From a virus, in the IMG/VR virus record IMGVR_UViG_3300031963_000004, positions 62,001 to 126,000 of that record: a stretch of 64,000 bases of DNA; one strand, written 5' to 3'. The notes under the pieces were generated by a model. The model did no database searches. It saw only the letters and a program-made list of their open reading frames with translations, and had not been told where the DNA came from. This document shows, piece after piece, positions 18,573 to 64,000 of this stretch; within the stretch, counting starts at the first letter, position 1; every line of letters starts with the position of its first letter. Both the position numbers and the translations under genes were made by a program.

Positions 18573-18601
18573 ATTATACAGAATACTGGATTAATTGTCA
18601 A
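18573..18601 (-). promoter_or_regulatory. Consensus sigma70 early promoter
   Basis: Minus strand TTGACA (18601-18596), 17-bp spacer beginning ATTAATCC, TATAAT (18578-18573). Serves the AAA+ gene with a short AGGAG-containing leader. Confidence 0.85.
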
Positions 18602-18914: not shown

Positions 18915-18943
18915 ATTATATACCCAAACTGATTTATTGTCAA
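18915..18943 (-). promoter_or_regulatory. Consensus sigma70 early promoter
   Basis: Minus strand TTGACA (18943-18938) followed by ATAAATCA, 17-bp spacer, TATAAT (18920-18915). Drives 18887. Confidence 0.85.
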
Positions 18944-34537: not shown

Positions 34538-35806
34538 TTATTTGTCATCATAAATTGCGTATGTACCAAACGGGGGATTAGGATTTTTGTCACCGTGAAT
34601 GATCCATGTAGTATCACAGTAATCTGGATCGCCCCAAGTACCGCAAGGATAACCATCTGTGAACACAATCAATCGTTTTGGTACGTTGCCTGCTTCTTTG
34701 AGATAATCAAAGATTACACCAAAGTCTGTGCCACCTCCACCTTGTGGTTCATATTCATCAATCGTATCAAGATTTTCACTTGTAAAATCTTTGCAGTTAT
34801 AAATGTCAGTATCAAAGCAGAATACATGAACTTTGTAACCATCAAATGCTTCCATCATGCCTGCGATTTCACTTAAAAAAGCTTTTGCTTGATGATCACC
34901 AATTGAACCACTCATATCAAGTGCAACAACTACATCAATTTCTTCGCCCGGTGTCATACCTGGCATTACTGCATCCATATGCCAACCTCTACGTGAGGGG
35001 CGCATCCAACTATAGTCAGTACGAATTGCACTAGTCAAGTTAGTTTGAATCAATTCACGCCAGGGCATAACTGGGTTGGTAACATCTTTGATAAGACGTT
35101 CAACACCTTTTGGCAATGAACCTGCTTCGGCACTTTGTGCAGCCTGAAGAATTGCCTGTTTCATTTCTTGGCGGGCTTGTTCACGTTCCTCATCAGACAT
35201 TTTGGGACGCTTACTTTTACCTTCACCTTCTTCACCATCATCACTATCACCATCACCATCCATGTGATCGTCAAGCATTTTATCAATGAGATCATCTAAT
35301 GAAATTTTTTGTACGTTTTTCATTAGGTCATCATAAATTTCTTCGGCTGCTTTACCGTCATACTTTGTTTCGTATAAGCAAGGTACAGTAGTAATAAAGT
35401 CACCGACTTTATGACGTTTTAGGTCTGCGTTTACTGCATAGTCATCAGCAATATTCCAAATCTGAGGATCACGTGTGCCTCGGCGACCCATATGATCGTA
35501 AACAACATGTAACACTTCATGCCCAACAAGAAACTCTACTTCTTTGGGCTTAAGCATCATGATGAATCTTGAATTGTAGTAAAACTTTTTGCCGTCAGTA
35601 GCAGCAGTGCCGCACCATTCATCAGCATTTACAAGTGTAAGCCTTGTTGCAAGATTACCAAAAAAACTATGGCGTAATAGTAGACCAATACGTGCAGTGA
35701 CCAATCGTTCACGGGCTGCATGATCTACTTTTGGATCAGTAGGTCCAATTAGATTGTCGAATTTTTTATTGCGTTTTTTCTTTTTTCCACCGATAACGTC
35801 ACTCAT
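34538..35806 (-). CDS. Metallopeptidase-like plus VWA domain protein (DUF2201-like)
   Basis: 422 aa. Zinc-peptidase motif HEVLHVVYDH (HExxH at 96-100) in the N-terminal half, a long acidic linker (GDGDSDDGEEGEG, residues 184-196), then a VWA-like domain with the MIDAS motif DMSGS at 297-301 and a Gly-rich GGGGTDF. This matches the predicted-metallopeptidase plus VWA-like family whose genes often pair with MoxR ATPases. The MoxR partner is encoded just upstream (36152-37249). Function in phages unknown; a chaperone or remodelling pair is inferred. Consensus early promoter. Confidence 0.85.
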   Translation of the reverse strand: MSDVIGGKKKKRNKKFDNLIGPTDPKVDHAARERLVTARIGLLLRHSFFGNLATRLTLVNADEWCGTAATDGKKFYYNSRFIMMLKPKEVEFLVGHEVLHVVYDHMGRRGTRDPQIWNIADDYAVNADLKRHKVGDFITTVPCLYETKYDGKAAEEIYDDLMKNVQKISLDDLIDKMLDDHMDGDGDSDDGEEGEGKSKRPKMSDEEREQARQEMKQAILQAAQSAEAGSLPKGVERLIKDVTNPVMPWRELIQTNLTSAIRTDYSWMRPSRRGWHMDAVMPGMTPGEEIDVVVALDMSGSIGDHQAKAFLSEIAGMMEAFDGYKVHVFCFDTDIYNCKDFTSENLDTIDEYEPQGGGGTDFGVIFDYLKEAGNVPKRLIVFTDGYPCGTWGDPDYCDTTWIIHGDKNPNPPFGTYAIYDDK

Positions 35807-35834: not shown

Positions 35835-35863
35835 ATTATAGCACCACATCGATTTACTGTCAA
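35835..35863 (-). promoter_or_regulatory. Consensus sigma70 early promoter
   Basis: Minus strand TTGACA (35863-35858) followed by GTAAATCG, 17-bp spacer ending TGC, TATAAT (35840-35835). Drives 35806; the upstream half lies inside the end of the 68-aa gene. Confidence 0.85.
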
Positions 35864-36151: not shown

Positions 36152-37249
36152 TTAGTTACCTGCCTCAACAATGTACTTACCATATTTCTTATGGAAGTCA
36201 TCAAAGTTTTTCAATTGACTGGGTTCAATCGGAAGCTTGTAAGTCTTAAGTGCAATTTTTGCACTAACGACAACTAGTTCAGTTTCAAAGTTTGCCATTG
36301 CATACGCAAAGAAATTGTCAGCCATTTCGTGGAACTTTTTCATGTCCACTTTCTTATTGTCAACTGCCTCTTTCAATTCATAGCACATTGAAATTGCCAG
36401 TGAGTACATAGCCGAAACTTCTTTTACTTGCAAATCCTTAACCTTACCGTTGAGAATATCAGTTGGCTCAGGCATCTTACCTGCAAGTTTACGGTGTGCA
36501 GCAAACTTAACTGCAAGACCTTCACCAATCGCACCACTGATAAGATTGAATTGAGTATCAGTGTCCGATGTTTCATCCTGCAATAGATCAGAAACAAAGC
36601 ACCAAGTACGGGGAGTAGCAAATGCGCGGCTACTGGATTTGTTGTCAAAGTCATACAAGTCTTGCTTAGCAAAACTCAAATAGCCAACTACATCCTTGTG
36701 AATTTTCTTGTCAACAGCCCACAACTGCCATGCATTAAAGTCGGGGCGCATTTCAAGGTGAACAAAACGATTCGCAAGCGGCATCGGCATACGATAAGTA
36801 ACACCTTTATCACTATCACGATTACCTGCTGCAACAATCACAACATTGTCGGGAAGTTTATATTTACCTACACGGCGATTAAGAATCAACTGATAACCTG
36901 CAGCCTGAACTGCGGGCGGTGCAGAGTTCATTTCATCTAAGAAAAGAACTACGATAGGATACTTACTTGCAAGTTCCTCATCAGGCAAATCAACTGGGGG
37001 TGCCCAATCCATTTTACCATTTTCTTTATTGAAGTATGGGATACCACGAATGTCAGTAGGTTCCATTTGCGCCATACGCAAATCAATCATAAGACCGCCG
37101 AGTTCTTCTGCGACCTCAGCAACTACCTCAGATTTACCAATACCGGGCGGACCCCAAAGAAAAACGGGTCGTTTAATTTTGAATGCGCTAAGCAATGCTT
37201 TGCGGGTTTGAATACTAGTGATAGTATGATTATCAGATACTTTTGCCAT
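36152..37249 (-). CDS. MoxR-family AAA+ ATPase
   Basis: 365 aa. Walker A GPPGIGKS (33-40), Walker B VVLFLDEMNSA (100-110), sensor-1 region VVIVAAGNRDSD and an arginine-finger region (MPMPLANRFVHLEM). The pattern is that of MoxR chaperone ATPases, which activate VWA-domain partners such as the metallopeptidase/VWA protein just downstream. Consensus early promoter and AGGAG; own terminator, so this pair is a defined early module. Confidence 0.88.
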   Translation of the reverse strand: MAKVSDNHTITSIQTRKALLSAFKIKRPVFLWGPPGIGKSEVVAEVAEELGGLMIDLRMAQMEPTDIRGIPYFNKENGKMDWAPPVDLPDEELASKYPIVVLFLDEMNSAPPAVQAAGYQLILNRRVGKYKLPDNVVIVAAGNRDSDKGVTYRMPMPLANRFVHLEMRPDFNAWQLWAVDKKIHKDVVGYLSFAKQDLYDFDNKSSSRAFATPRTWCFVSDLLQDETSDTDTQFNLISGAIGEGLAVKFAAHRKLAGKMPEPTDILNGKVKDLQVKEVSAMYSLAISMCYELKEAVDNKKVDMKKFHEMADNFFAYAMANFETELVVVSAKIALKTYKLPIEPSQLKNFDDFHKKYGKYIVEAGN

Positions 37250-37294: not shown

Positions 37295-37323
37295 ATTATA
37301 ATATAAGTATGATTTACTGTCAA
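37295..37323 (-). promoter_or_regulatory. Consensus sigma70 early promoter
   Basis: Minus strand TTGACA (37323-37318) followed by GTAAATCA, 17-bp spacer, TATAAT (37300-37295). Drives the MoxR gene. Confidence 0.85.
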
Positions 37324-38079: not shown

Positions 38080-38108
38080 ATTATATAACCTTTTGGATTT
38101 ATTGTCAA
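38080..38108 (-). promoter_or_regulatory. Consensus sigma70 early promoter
   Basis: Minus strand TTGACA (38108-38103) followed by ATAAATCC, 17-bp spacer, TATAAT (38085-38080). Confidence 0.85.
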
Positions 38109-38382: not shown

Positions 38383-38411
38383 ATTATATGCCCAAATGGA
38401 TTTATTGTCAA
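38383..38411 (-). promoter_or_regulatory. Consensus sigma70 early promoter
   Basis: Minus strand TTGACA (38411-38406) followed by ATAAATCC, 17-bp spacer, TATAAT (38388-38383). Confidence 0.85.
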
Positions 38412-38639: not shown

Positions 38640-38668
38640 ATTATATACCCAAACGGATTTATCGTCAA
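38640..38668 (-). promoter_or_regulatory. Near-consensus sigma70 early promoter
   Basis: Minus strand TTGACG (38668-38663) followed by ATAAATCC, 17-bp spacer, TATAAT (38645-38640). Confidence 0.8.
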
Positions 38669-38674
38669 CCAAAA

Positions 38675-38700
38675 AAAATGTTGCTAATTAGCAACATTTT
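38675..38700 (-). terminator. Terminator after the aminotransferase gene
   Basis: Perfect 13-bp palindrome AAAATGTTGCTAA/TTAGCAACATTTT with A/T tracts on both sides (TTTT follows on the minus strand). Stops transcription from 38725-39891 before the early promoter at 38640. Confidence 0.75.
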
Positions 38701-38724
38701 CAACATTGAAACATTTACAATTTG

Positions 38725-39891
38725 TTAATTATTTCGCCAGTACTCACTAGCAGTGGCGACACCGCTACCTGGGACGACTTTAATACCAGTATCAAGCATA
38801 GCCATTTCTGCTCCGGCTATAGCAGCCATTAAGTGTACTTCATTCATATCACCTAGATGACCTATGCGGAAAAGCTTACCTGCTACTTTACTAAGTCCTG
38901 CACCCAATGATAGGTTATAGCGTTTGTATGCTCTACTAATAACATCACTACCATTAAATCCTTCAGGTACTATAATTGCTGATACTGTGTCACTATACCA
39001 TTTTGGATCTTTGGCACATAAGTCTAGTTGCCAACCGTCAATTACTGCACGGCGAACGCCTTCTGCAAGATAGTGATGGCGTTTAACAATATTATCTAGA
39101 CCTTCTTCTTCAATCATATTAAGTGCTTCTGCAAGTCCATATAACAATGACAATGCAGGTGTATATGGAAAATAACCAGTTGCATTAGAATTAACCATAT
39201 CAGTTAAATCAAAGTAACTGCGTGATGATTTTGCAGATTTGGTTTTATCCAACGCCTTTTTACTAGCACATAATATACCTAATCCAGCAGGTAACATGAA
39301 CCCTTTTTGTGATCCTGTTACTGCCATGTCAACACCCCATTCATCAAATTTAAAATCTAATGACCCAAGTGAACTTACAGCATCAACAAATAATAATGCA
39401 GGGTGATCACATTCGTTCAGCGCCCAACGCACTTCACTAATACTTGATGTGACTCCCGTAGCAGTTTCATTGTGACATGCTAACACTGCTTTGATTTCTT
39501 GATTTTTATCGTTTGCTAATATTTCAGCAAACTTAGCGGATGGGATACCTGTACCCCACTCGCAGTCTACGATTTCTACATCTAATCCATGTTTTAAACA
39601 CATTTCTATCCAGAGATGACTGAACTGGCCAAATCGTGCAGCTAGAACTTTGTCACCGGGACTTAGTGTATTTGTTATTGCGGCTTCCCAGCATCCTGTA
39701 CCAGATGAGGGGAAAATAAAGGGTGTTCCGTGTTCTGTACGGAATACCTTCTTTAATTTTGGAAATAATTGTGCCGAAAGTTCAGGAAACTTCGGTGAGC
39801 GATGGTCTTCCATAGACACCATCATTGCTCTCATAATACGATCAGGGATGTTTGTAGGCCCAGGTACAAACAAGAAATTACGACCAGCCAT
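38725..39891 (-). CDS. Serine/alanine-glyoxylate aminotransferase-like enzyme
   Basis: 388 aa, class V PLP aminotransferase, full length. Starts with the family signature FLFVPGPTNIPDRIMRAM. PLP-site residues: SSGTGCWEA (62-70), HNETATGV (140-147), Asp170 in LFVDAVSSLGS, and Lys196 in TGSQKGFMLPAGL. Closest to betaproteobacterial serine-glyoxylate aminotransferases from memory. It would transfer the amino group of serine or alanine to glyoxylate, giving glycine plus hydroxypyruvate or pyruvate. An unusual auxiliary metabolic gene; AGGAG, own terminator, no late element. Confidence 0.9.
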   Translation of the reverse strand: MAGRNFLFVPGPTNIPDRIMRAMMVSMEDHRSPKFPELSAQLFPKLKKVFRTEHGTPFIFPSSGTGCWEAAITNTLSPGDKVLAARFGQFSHLWIEMCLKHGLDVEIVDCEWGTGIPSAKFAEILANDKNQEIKAVLACHNETATGVTSSISEVRWALNECDHPALLFVDAVSSLGSLDFKFDEWGVDMAVTGSQKGFMLPAGLGILCASKKALDKTKSAKSSRSYFDLTDMVNSNATGYFPYTPALSLLYGLAEALNMIEEEGLDNIVKRHHYLAEGVRRAVIDGWQLDLCAKDPKWYSDTVSAIIVPEGFNGSDVISRAYKRYNLSLGAGLSKVAGKLFRIGHLGDMNEVHLMAAIAGAEMAMLDTGIKVVPGSGVATASEYWRNN

Positions 39892-39992
39892 AGTATTCTC
39901 CTATGCTCTAAACTAGCAGCGAGATAATACTTAGTTCTGTTAAAACTCTAAAAAATATAAAATTTGACCAAAGCTGTCCTAACCAAATCATA

Positions 39993-50486: not shown

Positions 50487-50546
50487 ACTATAACTATTAA
50501 ATATTTATTGCAAATGAATATTTTTTATTTAAAGGAGACACACAGT

Positions 50547-51572
50547 ATGAAAAAGGTATTTGCATTATTAACCTTAATGGTTTCACAAGTCGCAATGTCA
50601 GCAGAATTTACTGGGGCAGGTGCGACTTTTCCATATCCGATTTACGCAAAGTGGGCAGAAGCTTATAAAGCACAAACTGGGATAGGATTGAATTATCAGA
50701 GCATTGGTAGTGGTGGCGGTATTCGTCAAATCAAAGCAAAAACAGTTGACTTTGGTGCAAGTGATATGCCATTAAAACCAGAAGAACTTGAGAAAGAAGG
50801 ACTAGTGCAATTTCCAGCTATCATAGGTGGAGTTGTTCCAGTTGTAAACTTAGATGGTATACAAGGTGGTCAACTAAAATTAACAAGTGATGTTATTGCT
50901 AACATACATTTAGGTAAAATTACTAAATGGAATGACAAAGCTATTGCCGAAATAAATCCTGGAGTTACATTACCTGCATTAAATATCACAGTCGTACATC
51001 GTGCAGATGGATCAGGTACAACATTTATTTGGACAAATTATCTAAGCAAAGCAAACGCAGACTTTCAAAAAACAGTAGGCGAGGGCACAGCAGTTAAATG
51101 GCCAGTAGGTGTAGGTGGTAAAGGTAATGAAGGTGTAGCAGCGCAAGTTCAGCGCATCAAAGGTGCTTTTGGTTATGTAGAATATGCATATGCTAAAAGA
51201 AACAAAATCGCACATACGCAATTAAAAAATCGTGATGGCAATTTTATTCAACCAGATGACAGTACATTCAAAGCAGCAACAGCTAATGCAGACTGGAATA
51301 ATGCTCCTGGCATGTACTTATTATTAACTTGGCAAACAGGCAAAGACGCATGGCCTGCAACTGGCGCAAGTTTTATTCTAATGCACAAACAACAAGCAGA
51401 TGCATTAACTGGTCGTGCTATTTTGAAATTCTTTGATTGGAGTTACAAAAATGGTAGCAAGATGAGTGAAGAATTAGAATATGTTCACTTACCACAGTCA
51501 GTTATTAAGTTGATACAAGAAAACTGGCGCCGTGACTTCAAAGGTCCAGATGGTAACGCAATTTGGAAATAA
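50547..51572 (+). CDS. pstS: Phosphate-binding protein PstS
   Basis: 341 aa from ATG 50547 with AAAGGAG. Sec signal peptide MKKVFALLTLMVSQVAMSA. Mature start EFTGAGATFPYPIYAKWAEAYK, then NYQSIGSGGGIRQIKAKTVDFGASD, HRADGSGTTFIWTNYLSKA, GNEGVAAQVQ and FGYVEYAYA are all PstS signatures with the phosphate-contacting Ser/Thr/Asp/Arg residues. It captures phosphate in the periplasm for the host Pst ABC transporter. Known auxiliary gene in marine cyanophages; here followed 9 nt on by a porin gene. Confidence 0.95.
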   Translation: MKKVFALLTLMVSQVAMSAEFTGAGATFPYPIYAKWAEAYKAQTGIGLNYQSIGSGGGIRQIKAKTVDFGASDMPLKPEELEKEGLVQFPAIIGGVVPVVNLDGIQGGQLKLTSDVIANIHLGKITKWNDKAIAEINPGVTLPALNITVVHRADGSGTTFIWTNYLSKANADFQKTVGEGTAVKWPVGVGGKGNEGVAAQVQRIKGAFGYVEYAYAKRNKIAHTQLKNRDGNFIQPDDSTFKAATANADWNNAPGMYLLLTWQTGKDAWPATGASFILMHKQQADALTGRAILKFFDWSYKNGSKMSEELEYVHLPQSVIKLIQENWRRDFKGPDGNAIWK

Positions 51573-53883: not shown

Positions 53884-54084
53884 TCAACCACCGGGTGAAT
53901 TGTAATATTTAATGTAGATACATCTTGGACTTACTCTGTAACCATCTGTATACCAAGTAGCCCTGATTCTTTCTTTTTCACGCATACATGTTTCGTAACT
54001 AGGCTGAGGAGCCTGTATAACTCCCTGACTTTGTGTAAAGCCATAAGATTGTGGCAAATACATACTGATAATGAGAATCCACAT
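53884..54084 (-). CDS. Small two-cysteine exported protein
   Basis: 66 aa: MWILIISMYLPQ, then SYETCMREKERI and SPRCIYIKYY. Convergent with the plus-strand paralogue: their stops are adjacent. A CTAAATA late element ends 5 nt before the ATG with no Shine-Dalgarno. Function unknown. Confidence 0.6.
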   Translation of the reverse strand: MWILIISMYLPQSYGFTQSQGVIQAPQPSYETCMREKERIRATWYTDGYRVSPRCIYIKYYNSPGG

Positions 54085-54089
54085 ACTAT

Positions 54090-54095
54090 TATTTA
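54090..54095 (-). promoter_or_regulatory. Late promoter element, leaderless start
   Basis: TAAATA core on the minus strand with 5 nt to ATG 54084. It sits just downstream of the tmRNA terminator. Confidence 0.5.
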
Positions 54096-54101
54096 GTTAA
54101 A

Positions 54102-54123
54102 AATAGGGACCGAAGTCCCTATT
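54102..54123 (-). terminator. Terminator of the tmRNA gene
   Basis: 9-bp stem AATAGGGAC/GTCCCTATT with a TTCG loop followed by a T-run on the minus strand. Confidence 0.85.
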
Positions 54124-54433
54124 ACTATTTTTGGTAACAAGGGATAGTTCCCCCGGAGATCATGCTGCTAGAGCAAAAACCTCATCGTTAGCTGCGTTTG
54201 CAGTTATAATTTTGCTTGATTTACGGTCATCGCCTACCGTGCTGTCCACTCGCCTACTCTTGACCCTGTCGAAACCATGTCTGGCCCATCAAAAGCAAGT
54301 TGGAGCTACTTATTATACCAACATTCAGGAACCGTAGCGGCCGCACAGTATCCGAAGCCATTTGCTTTTGGTGGACCAGGCGGGAGTCGAACCCGCGTCC
54401 AGAACCCTTTTGGGGTTGCTTCATACAGCAATA
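54124..54433 (-). ncRNA. ssrA: Circularly permuted (two-piece) tmRNA
   Basis: Read on the minus strand, the 5' segment ends with a T-arm (GCGGG-TTCGACT-CCCGC) and acceptor strand CTGGTCC-A-CCA (CCA at 54371-54369). The 5' half of the acceptor stem, GGGCCAG, starts downstream at 54287 and is followed by ACATGGTTTCGACAGGG, the conserved tmRNA 5' sequence. The two halves pair in 7 bp and place a G3-U70 wobble, the alanyl-tRNA identity signal. The tag frame (54201-54160) encodes ANAANDEVFALAA then TGA. The intervening segment (54288-54368) has complementary AAAAGCAA/TTGCTTTT ends, a likely processing stem. Piece ends are approximate. Rescues stalled ribosomes and tags their products for proteolysis. 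Confidence 0.93.
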
Positions 54434-54439
54434 ACCTGT

Positions 54440-54468
54440 AGTTTATATTTATTCGGAAAGATTGTCAA
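54440..54468 (-). promoter_or_regulatory. Promoter of the tmRNA gene
   Basis: Minus strand TTGACA (54468-54463), 17-bp spacer, TAAACT (54445-54440). The spacer also contains AATAAATA, a possible late element, so early and late transcription are both possible. Confidence 0.65.
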
Positions 54469-54472
54469 CAAA

Positions 54473-54667
54473 TTAGGGTTTCTTAACTTGTTGTTCGGGC
54501 ACACAAAATGCGGTCATGTTTGGTCTATTGTGTGTGATGCTACGTGCGACTTCTAAACATTCTTCCATTCTGTCAAATGTTTTCCATTGACTTTCATGGA
54601 TATGTCCTGAGATAATAACAGCAACAATTAATACATAATTCACATATAATTCCCGGTTATATGTCAT
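54473..54667 (-). CDS. Small two-cysteine membrane/exported protein
   Basis: 64 aa: a polar first 8 residues, then hydrophobic YVNYVLIVAVIISG, TFDRMEECLEVA and TAFCVPEQQ. It belongs to the five-member small-protein set described at 12077. Stop lies 5 nt from the tmRNA promoter. Function unknown. Confidence 0.6.
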   Translation of the reverse strand: MTYNRELYVNYVLIVAVIISGHIHESQWKTFDRMEECLEVARSITHNRPNMTAFCVPEQQVKKP

Positions 54668-57800: not shown

Positions 57801-58497
57801 CCATACACTTTCGTAATGCTTTTTGACTTTGCTGATACTTAGTACCTTGATTATTCGGTACTACATAGCAAGGTCCTCCATCAGAGTCCCATTGTGTTCC
57901 AAATACATGAACATATGGAGGTTCATGTTTATTCGGCATCCAACCAAAGTCAAAGTTTGATACATCTACGTTAACAGGCACAGCCCAAAATTCTGTATCA
58001 AAGTATAAGCTAACTAACTCTTTGAATTCTTTTTGAGAGGAAAATGTAAGGATAGGAGGAATTTTATATTTTAAGTCTATTGAAATATACTTTTGTTTTT
58101 CAGCGCCCTCTACATGATATTCTGCAACAATTTTTTCTTCTTCATCTATTGAACCAATAAAAATATACACGAAGGGTTCTTCAGTGTCATCAGGATGCCA
58201 GCTAAAGTCAAAATCTAATTTATCATTTTTAATAAAAAAGTTTTCTTTATGTTGCAAATGTCTTACTGTTTGAAAGTCATGGTACTTAACACCTTCACTT
58301 TCGGGAATTACAAACTTAGGTCCGCCAGTTTTCTGCCATTGTGTTCCAAACTGATGCGTATAAGGTCTGTCATAGTAACTAGGTCTCCATGAAAAGTCAA
58401 AGCCCTCAGTATCAACATTATCGGGGATAACCCAATAACCTTGTTCCCATAACTTAATTCTTTCTTCTATATCGTAATCTTTTTGTTCTACCATCAT
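54835..58497 (-). CDS. 1220-aa protein with eleven FDFxWxP repeats, GT-like C-terminus
   Basis: Start ATG 58497 (ATGA overlap with the carbamoyltransferase stop, AAAGGTG upstream). Eleven copies of a unit containing FWAVPxNVDxxxFDFSWxP then PPYxHxFGTQW and GGPxYVVPxxxGxKYQ can be seen. Two copies are a variant type (HPDDTEEPFVYIF, HHDDRDPPYIYKF, each followed by EGA). The C-terminal 260 residues (VGVDGIKG...WYFLVNAKLKVNEDFNFDWQP, then SKWDTWRTAFREVVKL) align with the glycosyltransferase-like gene at 63-64 kb, but without its DGD motif. So the repeats look like multiplied, non-catalytic copies of one module. Function unknown. Confidence 0.8.
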   Translation of the reverse strand: MMVEQKDYDIEERIKLWEQGYWVIPDNVDTEGFDFSWRPSYYDRPYTHQFGTQWQKTGGPKFVIPESEGVKYHDFQTVRHLQHKENFFIKNDKLDFDFSWHPDDTEEPFVYIFIGSIDEEEKIVAEYHVEGAEKQKYISIDLKYKIPPILTFSSQKEFKELVSLYFDTEFWAVPVNVDVSNFDFGWMPNKHEPPYVHVFGTQWDSDGGPCYVVPNNQGTKYQQSQKALRKCMVPIYEIDDTTTVEDLIYEYPSDAFWAVPNNIDKESFDFTWVPNRYDPPYIHQFGTRFNTSDGPAYVVPSNKGYKYHDYPLAAKIPLKKYTLDKINTLQKIISEHRTETFWVVPENLNDEDFDYSWEPPIGEPPYLHQFGTQWNQDAGPALIVPNYMGVKYQTFQIAKKSSDTVIHYIETDLDDLINEFPEDNFWAVPKGLDVSKFDFSWEPRKDEPYLHMFGTQWQNTGGPVYVVADYEGIKYQTFQAAIKLPDESRFTKLTTDEILFDYSWHHDDRDPPYIYKFGVKNEYRDNLKYVLEYKIEGATQTKFVANPIVKLINKNIKKYYIETTLEDLIKQHPDEMFWALNAELNYDKFDFSWEPEDYESPYVHVFGNKESLDLQTYFVIEKHCKEKIQYNYVSELEIDVDSKLDMFYIDRMNKDSLENFEILQEKFPQIKKTRFANGWAEVIASCANKSKTKLFWVLSSEIDYADFDFNYYPSIWQTRMLHVFKTQWTQWGYTYLVNKDSYLIEYKKDKLLEDMSMLNFVNKEAKIKESLHDIYLIDFGNQHTCLETLKDRVPNRNITVIPHDTDYYQTFFSIVESLPTKNEHYIWICSSICDYSNFDFTQTFDTGTSEQMYVFASNNQKFGDTFLVNVNELRMFLPIIKKLDDYPEINFKGEQSVPRLPAPVTIVDDDTLVNSIHNQVDFPYQVLITADNKNMRHEDIDTMSLWKAEDKTVIITSTGASRIIAPKETSKFVKKEIYDYPYIITSKKLSQSKPLDIVFFSNGEACAEENYEHLLNIAKDLPNIVVGVDGIKGRVASQHEAARMSNTPWYFLVNAKLKVNEDFNFDWQPDRLQIPKHYIFTATNPLNGLEYGHQAIVANNKKLTLNTIVKGLDFTLDSEHEVVNINSGISRFNTSKWDTWRTAFREVVKLKHSVETIGSEENKERLDIWLTVATGEYSEYCLKGANEAVKYYESVKGDFEKLRLTYDWAWIKEYYDNLYP

Positions 58498-59984
58498 GAA
58501 CACACCTTTATTTTATATTTGCTTTGAAATCTATCTGCATCTGCTCTATCATTTACCATTGGTTCACCTTTGATATTAAGTGAGGTGTTTAATAACATAG
58601 GACAACCTGTATGATAATGCCAAAATTCTAATAACTCTCTAATACCTGATCCGTCTTTAGGTACAGTCTGTACTCTACTTGTATTATCATGGTGTACGAT
58701 AGCAGGAAACTTTTCTGGATATTTACAGTTAGCAACTATTTGCATGTATCTACTATCTACCCAACATTTAGGCATATCAAAATATTCATTTGCATATTCT
58801 TCTAATATTACGGGTGCAAATGGTCTAAACTTTTGCCTACGCTTAATTTCATTTACTTTATCTTTTATTTCATTCCCTCTAGGATCAGCTAATAAACTGC
58901 GATTGCCTAATGCCCTAGGTCCAAACTCAGCACGACCTGAAGCTACACCCACTATCTTGTTTTTCTTAAGTTCATCATATAAATCTACAGTAGGATAATG
59001 CCCTTTTATGTTATGACCAAGATAAGCATTCTTCCAATTTAAATTACGCCCATAACCTAGTGCTGCTGCTCCTAAACTGCTACCTGCATCACCTGGATTA
59101 GGCATAATCCAAACTTTGTCAAAATATTTACCTAGTATTCTGTTAGCCAAACAATTTAATGCAACGCCACCACCGTATACTAAGTTATTACTATAACCTT
59201 TTTCTTTGCACAGTGTTAACGCTACTTCTAACATTTCTTCTAAAAACTTCTGCGCACTAGCTGCTATATCCATTTCATTAGCATGATGCAAGAAGCTATG
59301 GCGTTCGTCTATACCAGTATGTAAGTTTTCTTTGAATTCAAAATTGTTTTTATCGTATACAAATGATTCAAACATTTGTTCGGTGTATGTAGGGTTGCCA
59401 TAAGCAGCCATACCCATCATAATGTATTCTTCATCCATCGGATGTAAACCTACATGTTGTGTCATAGCACTGTAGAATAAGCCTAAGCTATTTGGATATT
59501 TTTTTGTATACAGATTTTTATATATAGCTTTACCATTACGGTCATAATCTGCATCCCAAATTGATATTGTGTCAAATTCTCCGATAGCATCTATTATTAA
59601 TACCGTAGCATTATTGAACGGACTTGTTTGAAAACCTGCTGCTGCATGGCTTAAATGATGATTGTGATAGTGTAACTTTTTCTTACCTAATCTTTTTTGA
59701 ACTTCTTTACCTATTAATCTTGTTTTACTAAAAACAGAGAAATCTAGTGGTTCACCTGATCGCAATGACCTTAAGAATCGTAAATAAGGTCTTTCGTAAT
59801 AATGTAAATCATGCCCTGAGGAAGAATGTTTTAGTACGTCCGTAATTAAATGAACGTTTAAGTTTGGGTCATTTTTAATTTTGCTATATCTTTCGCTGTG
59901 ACCAGCGAAAAGAATATTACCACGGTCGTCTATTAAACTGACCGCTGCATCATGAAATCCGTTGCTTATGCCTATAAAATTCAT
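58494..59984 (-). CDS. Carbamoyltransferase (NodU/TobZ/HypF-like)
   Basis: 496 aa. N-terminal Kae1-like half: MNFIGISNGFHDAAVSLIDD, HHLSHAAAGFQTSPF (metal-binding His) and VLIIDAIGEFDTISIW. Then YGGGVALNCLANRIL, PNPGDAGSSLGAAAL and the C-terminal GRAEFGPRALGNRSLLADPR, RPFAPVILEEYA. These are family hallmarks. It uses carbamoyl phosphate and ATP to carbamoylate a hydroxyl of a sugar or natural product. The acceptor is unknown; neighbours suggest a glycan or modified peptide. Confidence 0.9.
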   Translation of the reverse strand: MNFIGISNGFHDAAVSLIDDRGNILFAGHSERYSKIKNDPNLNVHLITDVLKHSSSGHDLHYYERPYLRFLRSLRSGEPLDFSVFSKTRLIGKEVQKRLGKKKLHYHNHHLSHAAAGFQTSPFNNATVLIIDAIGEFDTISIWDADYDRNGKAIYKNLYTKKYPNSLGLFYSAMTQHVGLHPMDEEYIMMGMAAYGNPTYTEQMFESFVYDKNNFEFKENLHTGIDERHSFLHHANEMDIAASAQKFLEEMLEVALTLCKEKGYSNNLVYGGGVALNCLANRILGKYFDKVWIMPNPGDAGSSLGAAALGYGRNLNWKNAYLGHNIKGHYPTVDLYDELKKNKIVGVASGRAEFGPRALGNRSLLADPRGNEIKDKVNEIKRRQKFRPFAPVILEEYANEYFDMPKCWVDSRYMQIVANCKYPEKFPAIVHHDNTSRVQTVPKDGSGIRELLEFWHYHTGCPMLLNTSLNIKGEPMVNDRADADRFQSKYKIKVCS

Positions 59985-60082
59985 TTGTAAATAAATGGAT
60001 CACGTTTTCTTGCTTCTCTTAATTTTTTTCTGTGTAATAATTCTCTGCGAATTTTATTTAAAATCATTCTAATAAAATACAT
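59981..60082 (-). CDS. 33-aa basic peptide
   Basis: ATG 60082 reads MYFIRMILNKIRRELLHRKK followed by LREARKRDPFIYK and TGA, which overlaps the carbamoyltransferase ATG (ATGA). Fourteen Lys/Arg/His residues in 33. Too short for a typical gene but well coupled. It could be a regulator or the substrate of the neighbouring enzymes; unknown. Confidence 0.5.
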   Translation of the reverse strand: MYFIRMILNKIRRELLHRKKLREARKRDPFIYK

Positions 60083-60086
60083 AATT

Positions 60087-60902
60087 TTACCTTAGATGCT
60101 CAACTTTCCAGTCTTGATATGGCAATAACCCTGCATTGACATAATCCATATATTGTTGAATAGTGTTAACAGGTTTTAATAAATTTTTCTTAAATTTATC
60201 CATACTTATATGATCTACTTTTTTAGTTTTTACTGCTTCTACTAACATGTTAGACAAAATTTCAAGATTCGGAATACTCATATGATTATCCCTTAAATCA
60301 ATTTGTGTTTTCTTTATCCAATTATAGTAAGCAGTTTCTGGTTTATCTGAAATTAATTCTTCATTGCATATTGTAAGCAATTCAATGTTTGGTCGTAAAA
60401 AATTATCTAGTTCTTTTGCAAAAGAAACATTTACAGTGATATTACTATTCATGAGAAAGATAAACGTAACCTTAGGTAGTTTTTCTGCGATATTTCTTAC
60501 TAAATGAGTCATTGCCTCATGAGTCACAGTTTCTATATACCCATCTTGATTAGCAACAAACCATTCTAAATATTTTTTATTTTCTCTGTACCATTCATGT
60601 TTTGGTAACTTATAATCTGAGACTGGATGTAAATATACCGCTGCCGTTTCAGGTCTTTCTTTTTGAAATTCTAATTTTAATCTTCCCGGAGTACTTCTGC
60701 AAAATACAACCACATCACCGTCTACAAAACGTTCATAATCTTCAAGTAAGCATTTTAAGGCATGCTCAGTACTACCCCCAGTCATTGCTTTGTTTTTAAT
60801 TTTACATCCTAACTTAATTGCAAATCTACTGGGCCAATCTAAATTTTGTATGGGAGTAGAAGCAGAAGCAAAACTATCTCCATAAACATATACAGTATTC
60901 AT
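60087..60902 (-). CDS. SGNH/GDSL-type hydrolase-like protein
   Basis: 271 aa. Block I YVYGDSFASAS with candidate nucleophile Ser10, a Gly/Asn-type AMTGGSTEHAL segment near 40, and DNHMSIPN (205-212) as a possible block V, though the Asp-His spacing is not canonical. Such enzymes de-esterify or acetylate sugars. It lies between the radical SAM genes and the carbamoyltransferase. Confidence 0.7.
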   Translation of the reverse strand: MNTVYVYGDSFASASTPIQNLDWPSRFAIKLGCKIKNKAMTGGSTEHALKCLLEDYERFVDGDVVVFCRSTPGRLKLEFQKERPETAAVYLHPVSDYKLPKHEWYRENKKYLEWFVANQDGYIETVTHEAMTHLVRNIAEKLPKVTFIFLMNSNITVNVSFAKELDNFLRPNIELLTICNEELISDKPETAYYNWIKKTQIDLRDNHMSIPNLEILSNMLVEAVKTKKVDHISMDKFKKNLLKPVNTIQQYMDYVNAGLLPYQDWKVEHLR

Positions 60903-60903
60903 T

Positions 60904-61845
60904 TCAAATCCATTTACTTATATCAACATCACTAGAACAATGACAAATAGCATTTTTAGTGCAAACTACAGGCTTAGTTGGCCATATAATATCATCTGGT
61001 TTATTGATATTGCCTATAACTCCACCTACCCCGCAATTACCAAGATTAATATCGCCATTCCAATACACAAACATTGCCTTTATACCTATATCACAAGTAT
61101 AGTTGTAAAAGTTTGTCATTCCAGCATTTATGTAATCATTAGCTACTGGCATATAATGTTCTGTGCCATCATCAAAATAATATGTGTTATAATTAATTTG
61201 AGGATCTCTGATAAGTCGTTCTAGCTTTTCTTTTCTGTCTGTATACCCATTATTAGAAAAGAATTCTAATTGGTCTTTGTTATAAAGGTGCGCTTCTCTA
61301 TCTTTTCCAATCCAATCAGTTATTCTTACTGGCTCAACATTTAAACTAGGTATATCTAAAATCTTTTTATATAATTCCATTGACTGATCCCAGTATTTAG
61401 GATGCATCATTACTCTAACAGTTACATTTGTAATTTTACTACTAACTGTTACTTTTTCAATGAAGTCAGGATCAGGGAATTCAGGATGATATGAGAAACA
61501 AATGTAACTCATGTAGTATGCGATTTCTTCCCAATATCTTACAGTTCTTGCTGCGTTACTAGTCATTCCTATGCTATGATTTTTTTCATAGAGCATTTGA
61601 ACTAATTCTTTAAAGAAAGGACTTAAACTAGGTTCGCCACCTGTGATAGTTACATGAATTTTAGGATGTCTATCAAACAACATATGAAAGAATTTTTTAG
61701 CATTCTCCCATTCATAATGATGATTCTTACCCTCATGTAAATCGCTTGGGCAATAACTACACTTGTTTGTACAGATATTGTTTATTACCCAAGTTAAATG
61801 AAACGGTGCGTAATTAGGTTGTTCTATCCTTATTATCTTTTTCAT
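60904..61845 (-). CDS. Radical SAM enzyme with C-terminal Cys cluster
   Basis: 313 aa. CTNKCSYC (Cys25, 29, 32) binds the SAM [4Fe-4S] cluster; TITGGEPSLSP (69-72 GGEP) contacts SAM. The C-terminal third contains TCDIG, GNCGVGG, VCTKNAICHC (Cys295, 301, 303), like an auxiliary SPASM-type cluster region. Reaction unknown; SPASM-type enzymes often modify peptides or sugars. The start overlaps the next radical SAM gene by 4 nt. Confidence 0.88.
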   Translation of the reverse strand: MKKIIRIEQPNYAPFHLTWVINNICTNKCSYCPSDLHEGKNHHYEWENAKKFFHMLFDRHPKIHVTITGGEPSLSPFFKELVQMLYEKNHSIGMTSNAARTVRYWEEIAYYMSYICFSYHPEFPDPDFIEKVTVSSKITNVTVRVMMHPKYWDQSMELYKKILDIPSLNVEPVRITDWIGKDREAHLYNKDQLEFFSNNGYTDRKEKLERLIRDPQINYNTYYFDDGTEHYMPVANDYINAGMTNFYNYTCDIGIKAMFVYWNGDINLGNCGVGGVIGNINKPDDIIWPTKPVVCTKNAICHCSSDVDISKWI

Positions 61846-63173
61846 CTATATTTTCCAGGATACATTGTACGCAAGCACTCTAGCTCAGGTATTGTATCAA
61901 ATATACTTTCATCTCTTACTTGATCCACTTGATAGCTTGTTCTTAAAAACTTAATAGCATCTTTAGGATTATGAGGCTTTTTCAACTCATGTATTATTTG
62001 TGCAAAATGAGGTCCTATATCTGTTGAATACTTTTTATCGTATTCTCCGATATAACCATTGATTCTTTCAATGATAGAATCTTTAAACTCATCTGGTAAA
62101 ATATGAACGTGATAATAACTAGGTTGTTCAAGTAGATTAATGAAGAAGTTTTTATACCAAAGCTTTTCTTTAATAACACCCAACTCTAGCAATTTATCAA
62201 TTATCTCAGGTAGTCTGAATACGTTCATAGCACCAATAGTTAATCCAGGTCTGACTATAAGATTATCCAATTTAGTCATTGCTATAAGATTTTCTTCTAC
62301 TTTAGGCCATATAGTACCGCTGCGAATTAACTCTGCTCTTGCACCTATCTCATCAATACTAGGCCAAATTTCTAACTTACCGTAATCCCATTGACTCCAG
62401 TAATCTAACACATTCTTTTTACCATATTCTAATACTGAACAGTTTGTATTATATGAAAGCTTAACGTCGAAACGTTTACCTTCAACTAACATATCAAGTA
62501 TCTGCCAATGCTCAGGCATTAACAATGGTTCACCACCTGCAAAGTAAATCTTCTCTACATGTTGAACCTGATCCTGTAAGAAATCATAGTTAGTTTGTTG
62601 ACCGACTGCATCAATATTCCAAACTTTTTCCTGATCAGTGTAGCCTAATTTCTTTGCATCAGGTACCCATGCTGAACTATATCTTGGCCCACAGCTACGA
62701 CATTTAAAATTACACAGATTACTAAATCTAAAGTCCCAATACTTTAATTTCATTTCATTACAAGTACCATCTTTTTCTGTAATGACTGGAATCTTTTTTA
62801 ATACTGATTTGAATTCACGGTTGTGATATATTCTACCACTTTCACCTGTAACTTTTTCTTTGTCGTAACACTTTCTACATATCTCAGGCTCCTCGTTGTT
62901 CATCATCTGTACACGGAGATTTTTCATATTGTCGCTGTTCCAAATCTGATCAATTGTTTGATGAGTTAGGTCGCCAGCAAAATAATTATATGTAGAAGTT
63001 AAGCAGCAAGGAACTACTTTACCGTTTGGTTCAAAGTTTAAGTGCATCCACGGGACTGCACATATTTTATTGTCTGTCTCTTTCATTAGCTTTCTGTATC
63101 TCCGTTTAGCATATTTGTACAACTGTGTGTTTAATAAAAATCTTTTAATCTTAACTTTAAGTGGAACTGACAT
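61842..63173 (-). CDS. Twitch-domain radical SAM enzyme
   Basis: 443 aa. N-terminal Cys-rich part: ICAVPWMHLNFEPNGKVVPCC and CRKCYDKE (Cys38, 56, 57, 99, 102), the inserted Twitch-like auxiliary cluster; then FSNLCNFKCRSCGPRYSSAW (Cys154, 158, 161) and YFAGGEPLL (213-216). Fits twitch-domain radical SAM proteins of uncharacterised function. It could share substrate with 60904. The stop of the upstream gene shares one base with its ATG. Confidence 0.88.
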   Translation of the reverse strand: MSVPLKVKIKRFLLNTQLYKYAKRRYRKLMKETDNKICAVPWMHLNFEPNGKVVPCCLTSTYNYFAGDLTHQTIDQIWNSDNMKNLRVQMMNNEEPEICRKCYDKEKVTGESGRIYHNREFKSVLKKIPVITEKDGTCNEMKLKYWDFRFSNLCNFKCRSCGPRYSSAWVPDAKKLGYTDQEKVWNIDAVGQQTNYDFLQDQVQHVEKIYFAGGEPLLMPEHWQILDMLVEGKRFDVKLSYNTNCSVLEYGKKNVLDYWSQWDYGKLEIWPSIDEIGARAELIRSGTIWPKVEENLIAMTKLDNLIVRPGLTIGAMNVFRLPEIIDKLLELGVIKEKLWYKNFFINLLEQPSYYHVHILPDEFKDSIIERINGYIGEYDKKYSTDIGPHFAQIIHELKKPHNPKDAIKFLRTSYQVDQVRDESIFDTIPELECLRTMYPGKYR

Positions 63174-64000
63174 TACCAGCCTTCAATTTTCCGTATAATG
63201 TCCATTTCTCTGACTAAGGGACCTAAATTATATTTATCGGCATTATAGTGTCGTTTGAAGAACTTCGATTGTTCTGCACTTAACGCACACATAGGTAACC
63301 CTAACTTGTCAGACAATAACTCGGCTAATTGTTTAGGTTCATTATGTTCAAATGTGTCCCATAACTTTACTAGTTCATCAAAATCTTGAACTTTGTTATA
63401 GTCCCACTCAGTTAGCATAGTCAAATATGTTCCTAATCTTGCACCATAGATAGCCCATTCACCGTTCTCAACATCCATACCCACATTCTGCCATATAGTA
63501 AGATTATTAAGATTTCTACTCGCTACACTTTCTTTAAATGAACTAATACTTGGTTTATTGCCCACTACTAGGCACATCTTTACACCTTCTCTAAATCCTG
63601 CACGCCAAGCTTGAAATGGTGTATAGTTAGGATACGTGGTTGAATAACAATCATACATGCTCCAGTATATATTGTCACTACTATCTAAACAAAAATCAAC
63701 CGTCGTCGCCGCACCGCCGTCACTATTTTCGTGTGTTCGCATATTCATGACGTAAGTTTTAGTCCAACTACTCATGCCACCATTACCGTAACGTAAACCG
63801 TTAACAGCATTAATTGCTCTCCAACGATATTGTGCGATTTGATAGGTAGGGTGTTTATCAGTGAAATCTAAATCTAAATCAAAGAATGACGGATCAGGCA
63901 TATTGTCACCGTCGATTAATATAAATCTTTCTGTGTCGCTTGCCTCTGCTGCTGCTTTGTGTGCGGCATCACTTCCCTTAACTCCATCTACTCTTTTAGC
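63173..64000 (-). CDS. Glycosyltransferase-like protein (5' end outside window)
   Basis: The frame is open to base 64000; the ATG at 63901 is internal. The visible part begins AKRVDGVKGSDAAHKAAAEA, then RFILIDGDNMPDPSFFDLDL, which places a DGD motif as in GT-A nucleotide-sugar transferases, and continues to RKIEGW. Its AWRAGFREGVKM and following IWQNVGMD region recurs in the C-terminus of the 1220-aa protein, so the two ends of this cassette are related. Likely a glycosyltransferase or derivative. Confidence 0.7.
   Translation of the reverse strand, partial: AKRVDGVKGSDAAHKAAAEASDTERFILIDGDNMPDPSFFDLDLDFTDKHPTYQIAQYRWRAINAVNGLRYGNGGMSSWTKTYVMNMRTHENSDGGAATTVDFCLDSSDNIYWSMYDCYSTTYPNYTPFQAWRAGFREGVKMCLVVGNKPSISSFKESVASRNLNNLTIWQNVGMDVENGEWAIYGARLGTYLTMLTEWDYNKVQDFDELVKLWDTFEHNEPKQLAELLSDKLGLPMCALSAEQSKFFKRHYNADKYNLGPLVREMDIIRKIEGW

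Follow-up and report, generated by a model that had tools for sequence, protein, structure and literature searches.

An intact serine:glyoxylate aminotransferase-like gene acquired by jumbo phages from Burkholderiales, with a probable role in drawing host glyoxylate into glycine

The window analyzed here, i.e. the whole 64,000-nucleotide stretch of viral DNA, covers positions 62001-126000 of a 223,151-bp virus contig (IMG/VR record IMGVR_UViG_3300031963_000004, hereafter G000). It carries genes for a terminase, a UvsX-like recombinase, SSB, a DnaB-type replicative helicase, a thymidylate synthase and virion proteins, with the terminase and a MoxR-type ATPase being closest, at ~50% identity, to those of Pseudomonas jumbo phages such as PA5oct. 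A gene for a PLP-dependent aminotransferase, whose neighbors are a tail-fibre gene and small phage ORFs, has the following features:

38725..39891, minus strand: gene for a predicted serine:glyoxylate aminotransferase of the SGA/AGT1 type; complete 388-aa ORF with an ATG start
39304..39306, minus strand: codon of K196 (in TGSQKG), the PLP-binding lysine, aligned to Lys201 of Arabidopsis AGT1; invariant
39898..39902, minus strand: AGGAG ribosome-binding site 6 nt 5' of the ATG, by direct reading
39924..39952, minus strand: weak candidate sigma-70-like promoter, TTTAGA-17-TATTAT (9/12), in the divergent gap toward the tail-fibre gene
38674..38701, minus strand: intrinsic terminator after the stop codon, with a 12-bp stem, 4-nt loop and U-run (-17.2 kcal/mol, z -3.2)

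The 388-aa protein scores 88.3 bits on the Pfam Aminotran_5 domain, for which the cutoff is 21.5. The complete ORF, this match and the retention of K196 bear out the original prediction, made from the DNA letters, of a full-length PLP enzyme with an intact active-site lysine. As to its further proposal that the gene has its own leader and terminator, the AGGAG element and the 12-bp hairpin with its U-run are present; the sole upstream promoter candidate, at 9/12, is no better than chance, the count of promoter-like sites around the gene not exceeding that expected. A search at the gene for riboswitches and other RNAs returned no match over the family thresholds. Host contamination of the contig was considered and rejected: phage genes flank the aminotransferase both here and in relatives, which makes it a real phage gene.

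A different type of promoter-like element recurs elsewhere in the window. Six perfect TTGACA-17-TATAAT sites are seen against 0.05 expected, and they share the extended motif TTGACARTAAATC:

18573-18601, 18915-18943, 35835-35863, 37295-37323, 38080-38108 and 38383-38411, all minus strand: perfect TTGACA-17-TATAAT sites
38640-38668, minus strand: the same type of site with one change

To judge from their sequence, the TTGACARTAAATC sites are probably the phage's own class of strong promoters; this motif is absent 5' of the aminotransferase gene.

The predicted structure of the protein (AlphaFold model, mean pLDDT 93.9) is closest to that of Arabidopsis AGT1 (6pk1/6pk3), with Z-scores of 59.3-59.4 and an rmsd of 1.0 Å over 387 residues at 52% identity. 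In second place comes a structural family with a Z-score of 50.7 and 29% identity, and the human and Nostoc/Anabaena AGTs are 27-28% identical to the phage protein in the structure comparison. AGT1 is the photorespiratory serine:glyoxylate enzyme, in which Tyr35' and Arg36' hold the serine hydroxyl (PMC6797613). Mapping of its active site by alignment, with an offset of 5, or of 6 past a one-residue insertion in AGT1, equates Lys201 with the Schiff-base lysine K196, Gln200 with Q195, Asp175 with D170, Thr70 with T65, Thr68 with S63, Thr148 with T143, Thr250' with T244, Arg347 with R342, Pro15 with P10 and Gly16 with G11. The protein has the class-V aminotransferase domain along with the PLP lysine K196, the aspartate D170, the glutamine Q195 and the substrate-carboxylate arginine R342. 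Across 22 distinct phage copies, K196, Q195, D170, T65, T143, T244, R342, P10 and G11 are invariant wherever covered; an active-site substitution, which the original prediction had named as telling against it, is not seen on alignment. The phage enzyme and AGT1 are alike in fold and catalytic residues, but differ in that the former lacks a peroxisomal targeting tail and has H30-R31 in place of the Tyr35'-Arg36' pair. The arginine of this pair, on the serine side, is kept in every phage copy, and the histidine that replaces the tyrosine is found in 46 of 53 serine-cycle enzymes and also in all 21 examined members of the related BhcA group (L-aspartate:glyoxylate aminotransferases). Since the H30-R31 pair is common to BhcA, it does not decide the amino donor.

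In a tree of 77 proteins, including Arabidopsis AGT1 (6pk1), the 22 distinct phage sequences and 12 betaproteobacterial ones form a single clade with 100/100 support, which answers the phylogenetic comparison with host-group enzymes suggested at the outset. Within this clade, 21 of the phage sequences cluster with moderate support (91/84), while the remaining one, L021, stands apart and groups with Comamonadaceae (96/86). The AU test does not reject one phage origin (p 0.33), and hence one or two acquisitions are possible. The phage gene nests among Burkholderiales enzymes whose genes adjoin serine-cycle genes or a RuBisCO gene; jumbo phages took it from Burkholderiales, and its ancestry is host-derived. 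The neighbors in the cellular relatives are GlyA (SHMT) and a HprA-type 2-hydroxyacid dehydrogenase, followed by Fch (methenyl-THF cyclohydrolase) and formate-THF ligase, with MtdA, malate-CoA ligase and PEP carboxylase also nearby, as recognized by eye and clustering only; in three Comamonadaceae-type bins the gene adjoins that for the RuBisCO large subunit. These serine-cycle and photorespiratory neighborhoods of the nearest cellular relatives lend support to the earlier idea that the hosts use the serine cycle or otherwise make glyoxylate. SgaA of serine-cycle Pseudomonadota falls in one clade with the phage enzyme, is 58-79% identical to it over the whole protein and has like active-site residues. 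In contrast, the phage version resides in jumbo phages, without glyA, hprA or mtd partners, and its C terminus is ~10-30 residues shorter than those of the nearest Burkholderiales copies.

Two scans of IMG/VR, which amount to the survey of other phages that had been proposed, recovered the gene on 28 viral contigs at 68-100% identity. Most copies lie upstream of a phrog_1250 gene and a DNA helicase; the window's copy is beside the tail-fibre gene, and that of L021 is near a MoxR/VWA pair. Its occurrence at several unrelated sites suggests that it moves singly. Among 80 loci at the phrog_1250 marker, 16 have the gene, 41 with enough upstream sequence lack it and 23 are too short, so that it is present in 16 of 57 informative loci and absent from most relatives. 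All full-length viral copies are uninterrupted and retain the lysine, and pairwise dN/dS among phage copies is 0.05-0.11 (0.06 for the tested bacterial pair), values whose lowness is meaningful but whose exact size is not, because several dS values are near saturation. A decaying remnant, the other outcome regarded beforehand as adverse, was therefore rejected. Taken together, the open copies, low dN/dS and patchy presence point to a gene of host origin that is accessory and kept under purifying selection, in keeping with the accessory metabolic gene originally proposed.

On the basis of its sequence and modeled structure, the phage gene is best read as encoding a serine:glyoxylate aminotransferase (SGA/SgaA): its closest fold is that of AGT1 and it shares a clade with serine-cycle Burkholderiales enzymes, in agreement with the enzyme class and the serine:glyoxylate activity first assigned to it. 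It could instead be a BhcA, which would convert aspartate and glyoxylate to glycine and oxaloacetate in the step that opens the beta-hydroxyaspartate cycle. The two groups are related within one superfamily and share glyoxylate as acceptor, H30 and R31 are also present in BhcA, glycine would be made in either case, and the best NCBIfam match of the phage protein is indeed the BhcA model (NF045640), with 590 bits across the whole length. However, this is below the cutoff of 650, and enzymes of serine-cycle clusters score alike on the same model (Methylorubrum 551, Polynucleobacter 590 and Burkholderiales 611), so that the match reflects kinship only; no NCBIfam serine:glyoxylate model was returned for any of these enzymes. 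Proteins over the cutoff, one of which is confirmed in a bhcRABCD cluster (L158), are just 50-58% identical to the phage protein, and all four of the columns that distinguish BhcA (21 sequences) from serine-cycle enzymes (53) have the SGA residue in the phage copies; BhcA has M and F where the phage protein has Q89 and L329, and is variable where it has E28. Moreover, none of bhcB, bhcC and bhcD adjoins the phage gene, unlike in the true cluster at L158. Given the score, the clade and the absent partners, we rejected the BhcA identity and consider it improbable. An aminotransferase of the human/Anabaena type, general or alanine-using, is a shade more improbable. Serine, alanine and asparagine are all substrates of plant AGT1 (PMC6797613), and hence some side activity of the phage enzyme is likely, but a preference for alanine, the other half of the name first given to the gene, is unlikely given that the serine-using AGT1 (52%) provides the closest fold and that human AGT is ~27% identical, with R31 moreover kept in all copies. 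BhcA itself also uses serine with glyoxylate (KM 2.1 mM, kcat 8.8 per second; PMC9436414), and the donor preference is not readable with certainty from sequence; either way glycine would be the product.

The least probable of the alternatives is that the phage uses the enzyme to some other end, for instance to modify DNA or surface sugars or to dispose of toxic glyoxylate. The gene does stand alone, and a sugar epimerase, a NodU-like carbamoyltransferase and radical-SAM genes are found on the same strand elsewhere in the window; but it has no conserved partner gene, it occupies several unrelated sites in relatives, and sugar aminotransferases belong to a different PLP family. Glyoxylate removal would proceed by the identical reaction and is hence indistinguishable here. 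We favor, with a probability of about 0.75, a working PLP-dependent serine:glyoxylate aminotransferase that jumbo phages acquired from Burkholderiales and that pulls host glyoxylate into glycine; donor preference, activity, expression during infection and metabolic benefit are what we infer. During infection the enzyme would most likely turn glyoxylate into glycine: the amino group of L-serine would be transferred to PLP on K196, yielding hydroxypyruvate, and then from PLP to glyoxylate, yielding glycine. The glyoxylate would come from host glycolate, photorespiration or the serine cycle, with the extra enzyme drawing it toward glycine. This glycine could enter purine synthesis or, via host SHMT or glycine cleavage, provide methylene-THF and C1 units for the phage thymidylate synthase, and the hydroxypyruvate may be returned through host hydroxypyruvate reductase. 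The phage record has a thymidylate synthase; a 221-kb relative (G212) has one as well, together with DHFR. Neither SHMT nor a 2-hydroxyacid dehydrogenase/hydroxypyruvate reductase was found in the phage record, which may be incomplete, and a tblastn search of it with ten families, run without a positive control, found no other serine-cycle genes; matches to PF02826 in G214 and G220 are short. The enzyme must accordingly plug into host metabolism, with serine and glyoxylate going in and hydroxypyruvate coming out. Of the proposed feeding of glyoxylate into glycine and serine metabolism, the glycine part stands, glycine being the product, but the reaction consumes serine and so does not by itself feed the latter. 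A supply of glycine for purines and of C1 units for the phage thymidylate synthase from host glyoxylate is plausible, and purine, nitrogen and C1 supply might in this manner be linked to phage replication, as was suggested at first.

The enzyme type is a known one, but no earlier description seems to exist of its occurrence across a whole set of viruses. Six named phage records contain only remote homologs (24-33% identity), a viral structure library gave no close match (best 11% identity), and the open-access literature searched yielded no serine:glyoxylate aminotransferase from a phage. Phages carry auxiliary metabolic genes such as psbA and pmoC; like these, the present gene is host-derived, intact, accessory and under purifying selection. 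We advance tentatively, at somewhat under even odds, the wider proposal of a virus-encoded serine-cycle/photorespiratory enzyme that steers betaproteobacterial C2 carbon (glyoxylate) to glycine for phage nucleotides, having been acquired on one or two occasions and exchanged among jumbo-phage lineages. If true, the steering of glyoxylate to glycine would be a new metabolic target of phage takeover. An active enzyme would mean that viruses intervene directly in glyoxylate use, which is how many water bacteria consume algal-released glycolate, and this step would be a concrete control point at which algal exudates are connected with one-carbon metabolism and the nucleotide supply of the phage.

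The host itself may be betaproteobacterial. A two-piece (permuted) tmRNA of the betaproteobacterial type, with tag ANAANDEVFALAA and matches to both RF01850 and RF04321, lies at 54069-54482 on the minus strand; its sequence fits such a host without being proof, and a family search for it in 60 relatives pointed to no host genus. The window further has a gene for a PstS-like phosphate-binding protein (50508-51572, plus strand), a second likely auxiliary metabolic gene. At 34538-35806 and 36152-37249, both on the minus strand, are a VWA/metallopeptidase-like protein (DUF2201) and a MoxR-type AAA ATPase, a pair also seen in relatives; the PHROG label 'HNH endonuclease' on the DUF2201 protein is at odds with its Pfam domains. 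The NodU-like carbamoyltransferase shares one gene run, at 58494-63901 on the minus strand, with two radical-SAM proteins, of which one has a SPASM domain. Beyond the window, at 132253-147993 of G000, a single ORF of 5246 aa lies on the same strand as the neighboring long ORFs.
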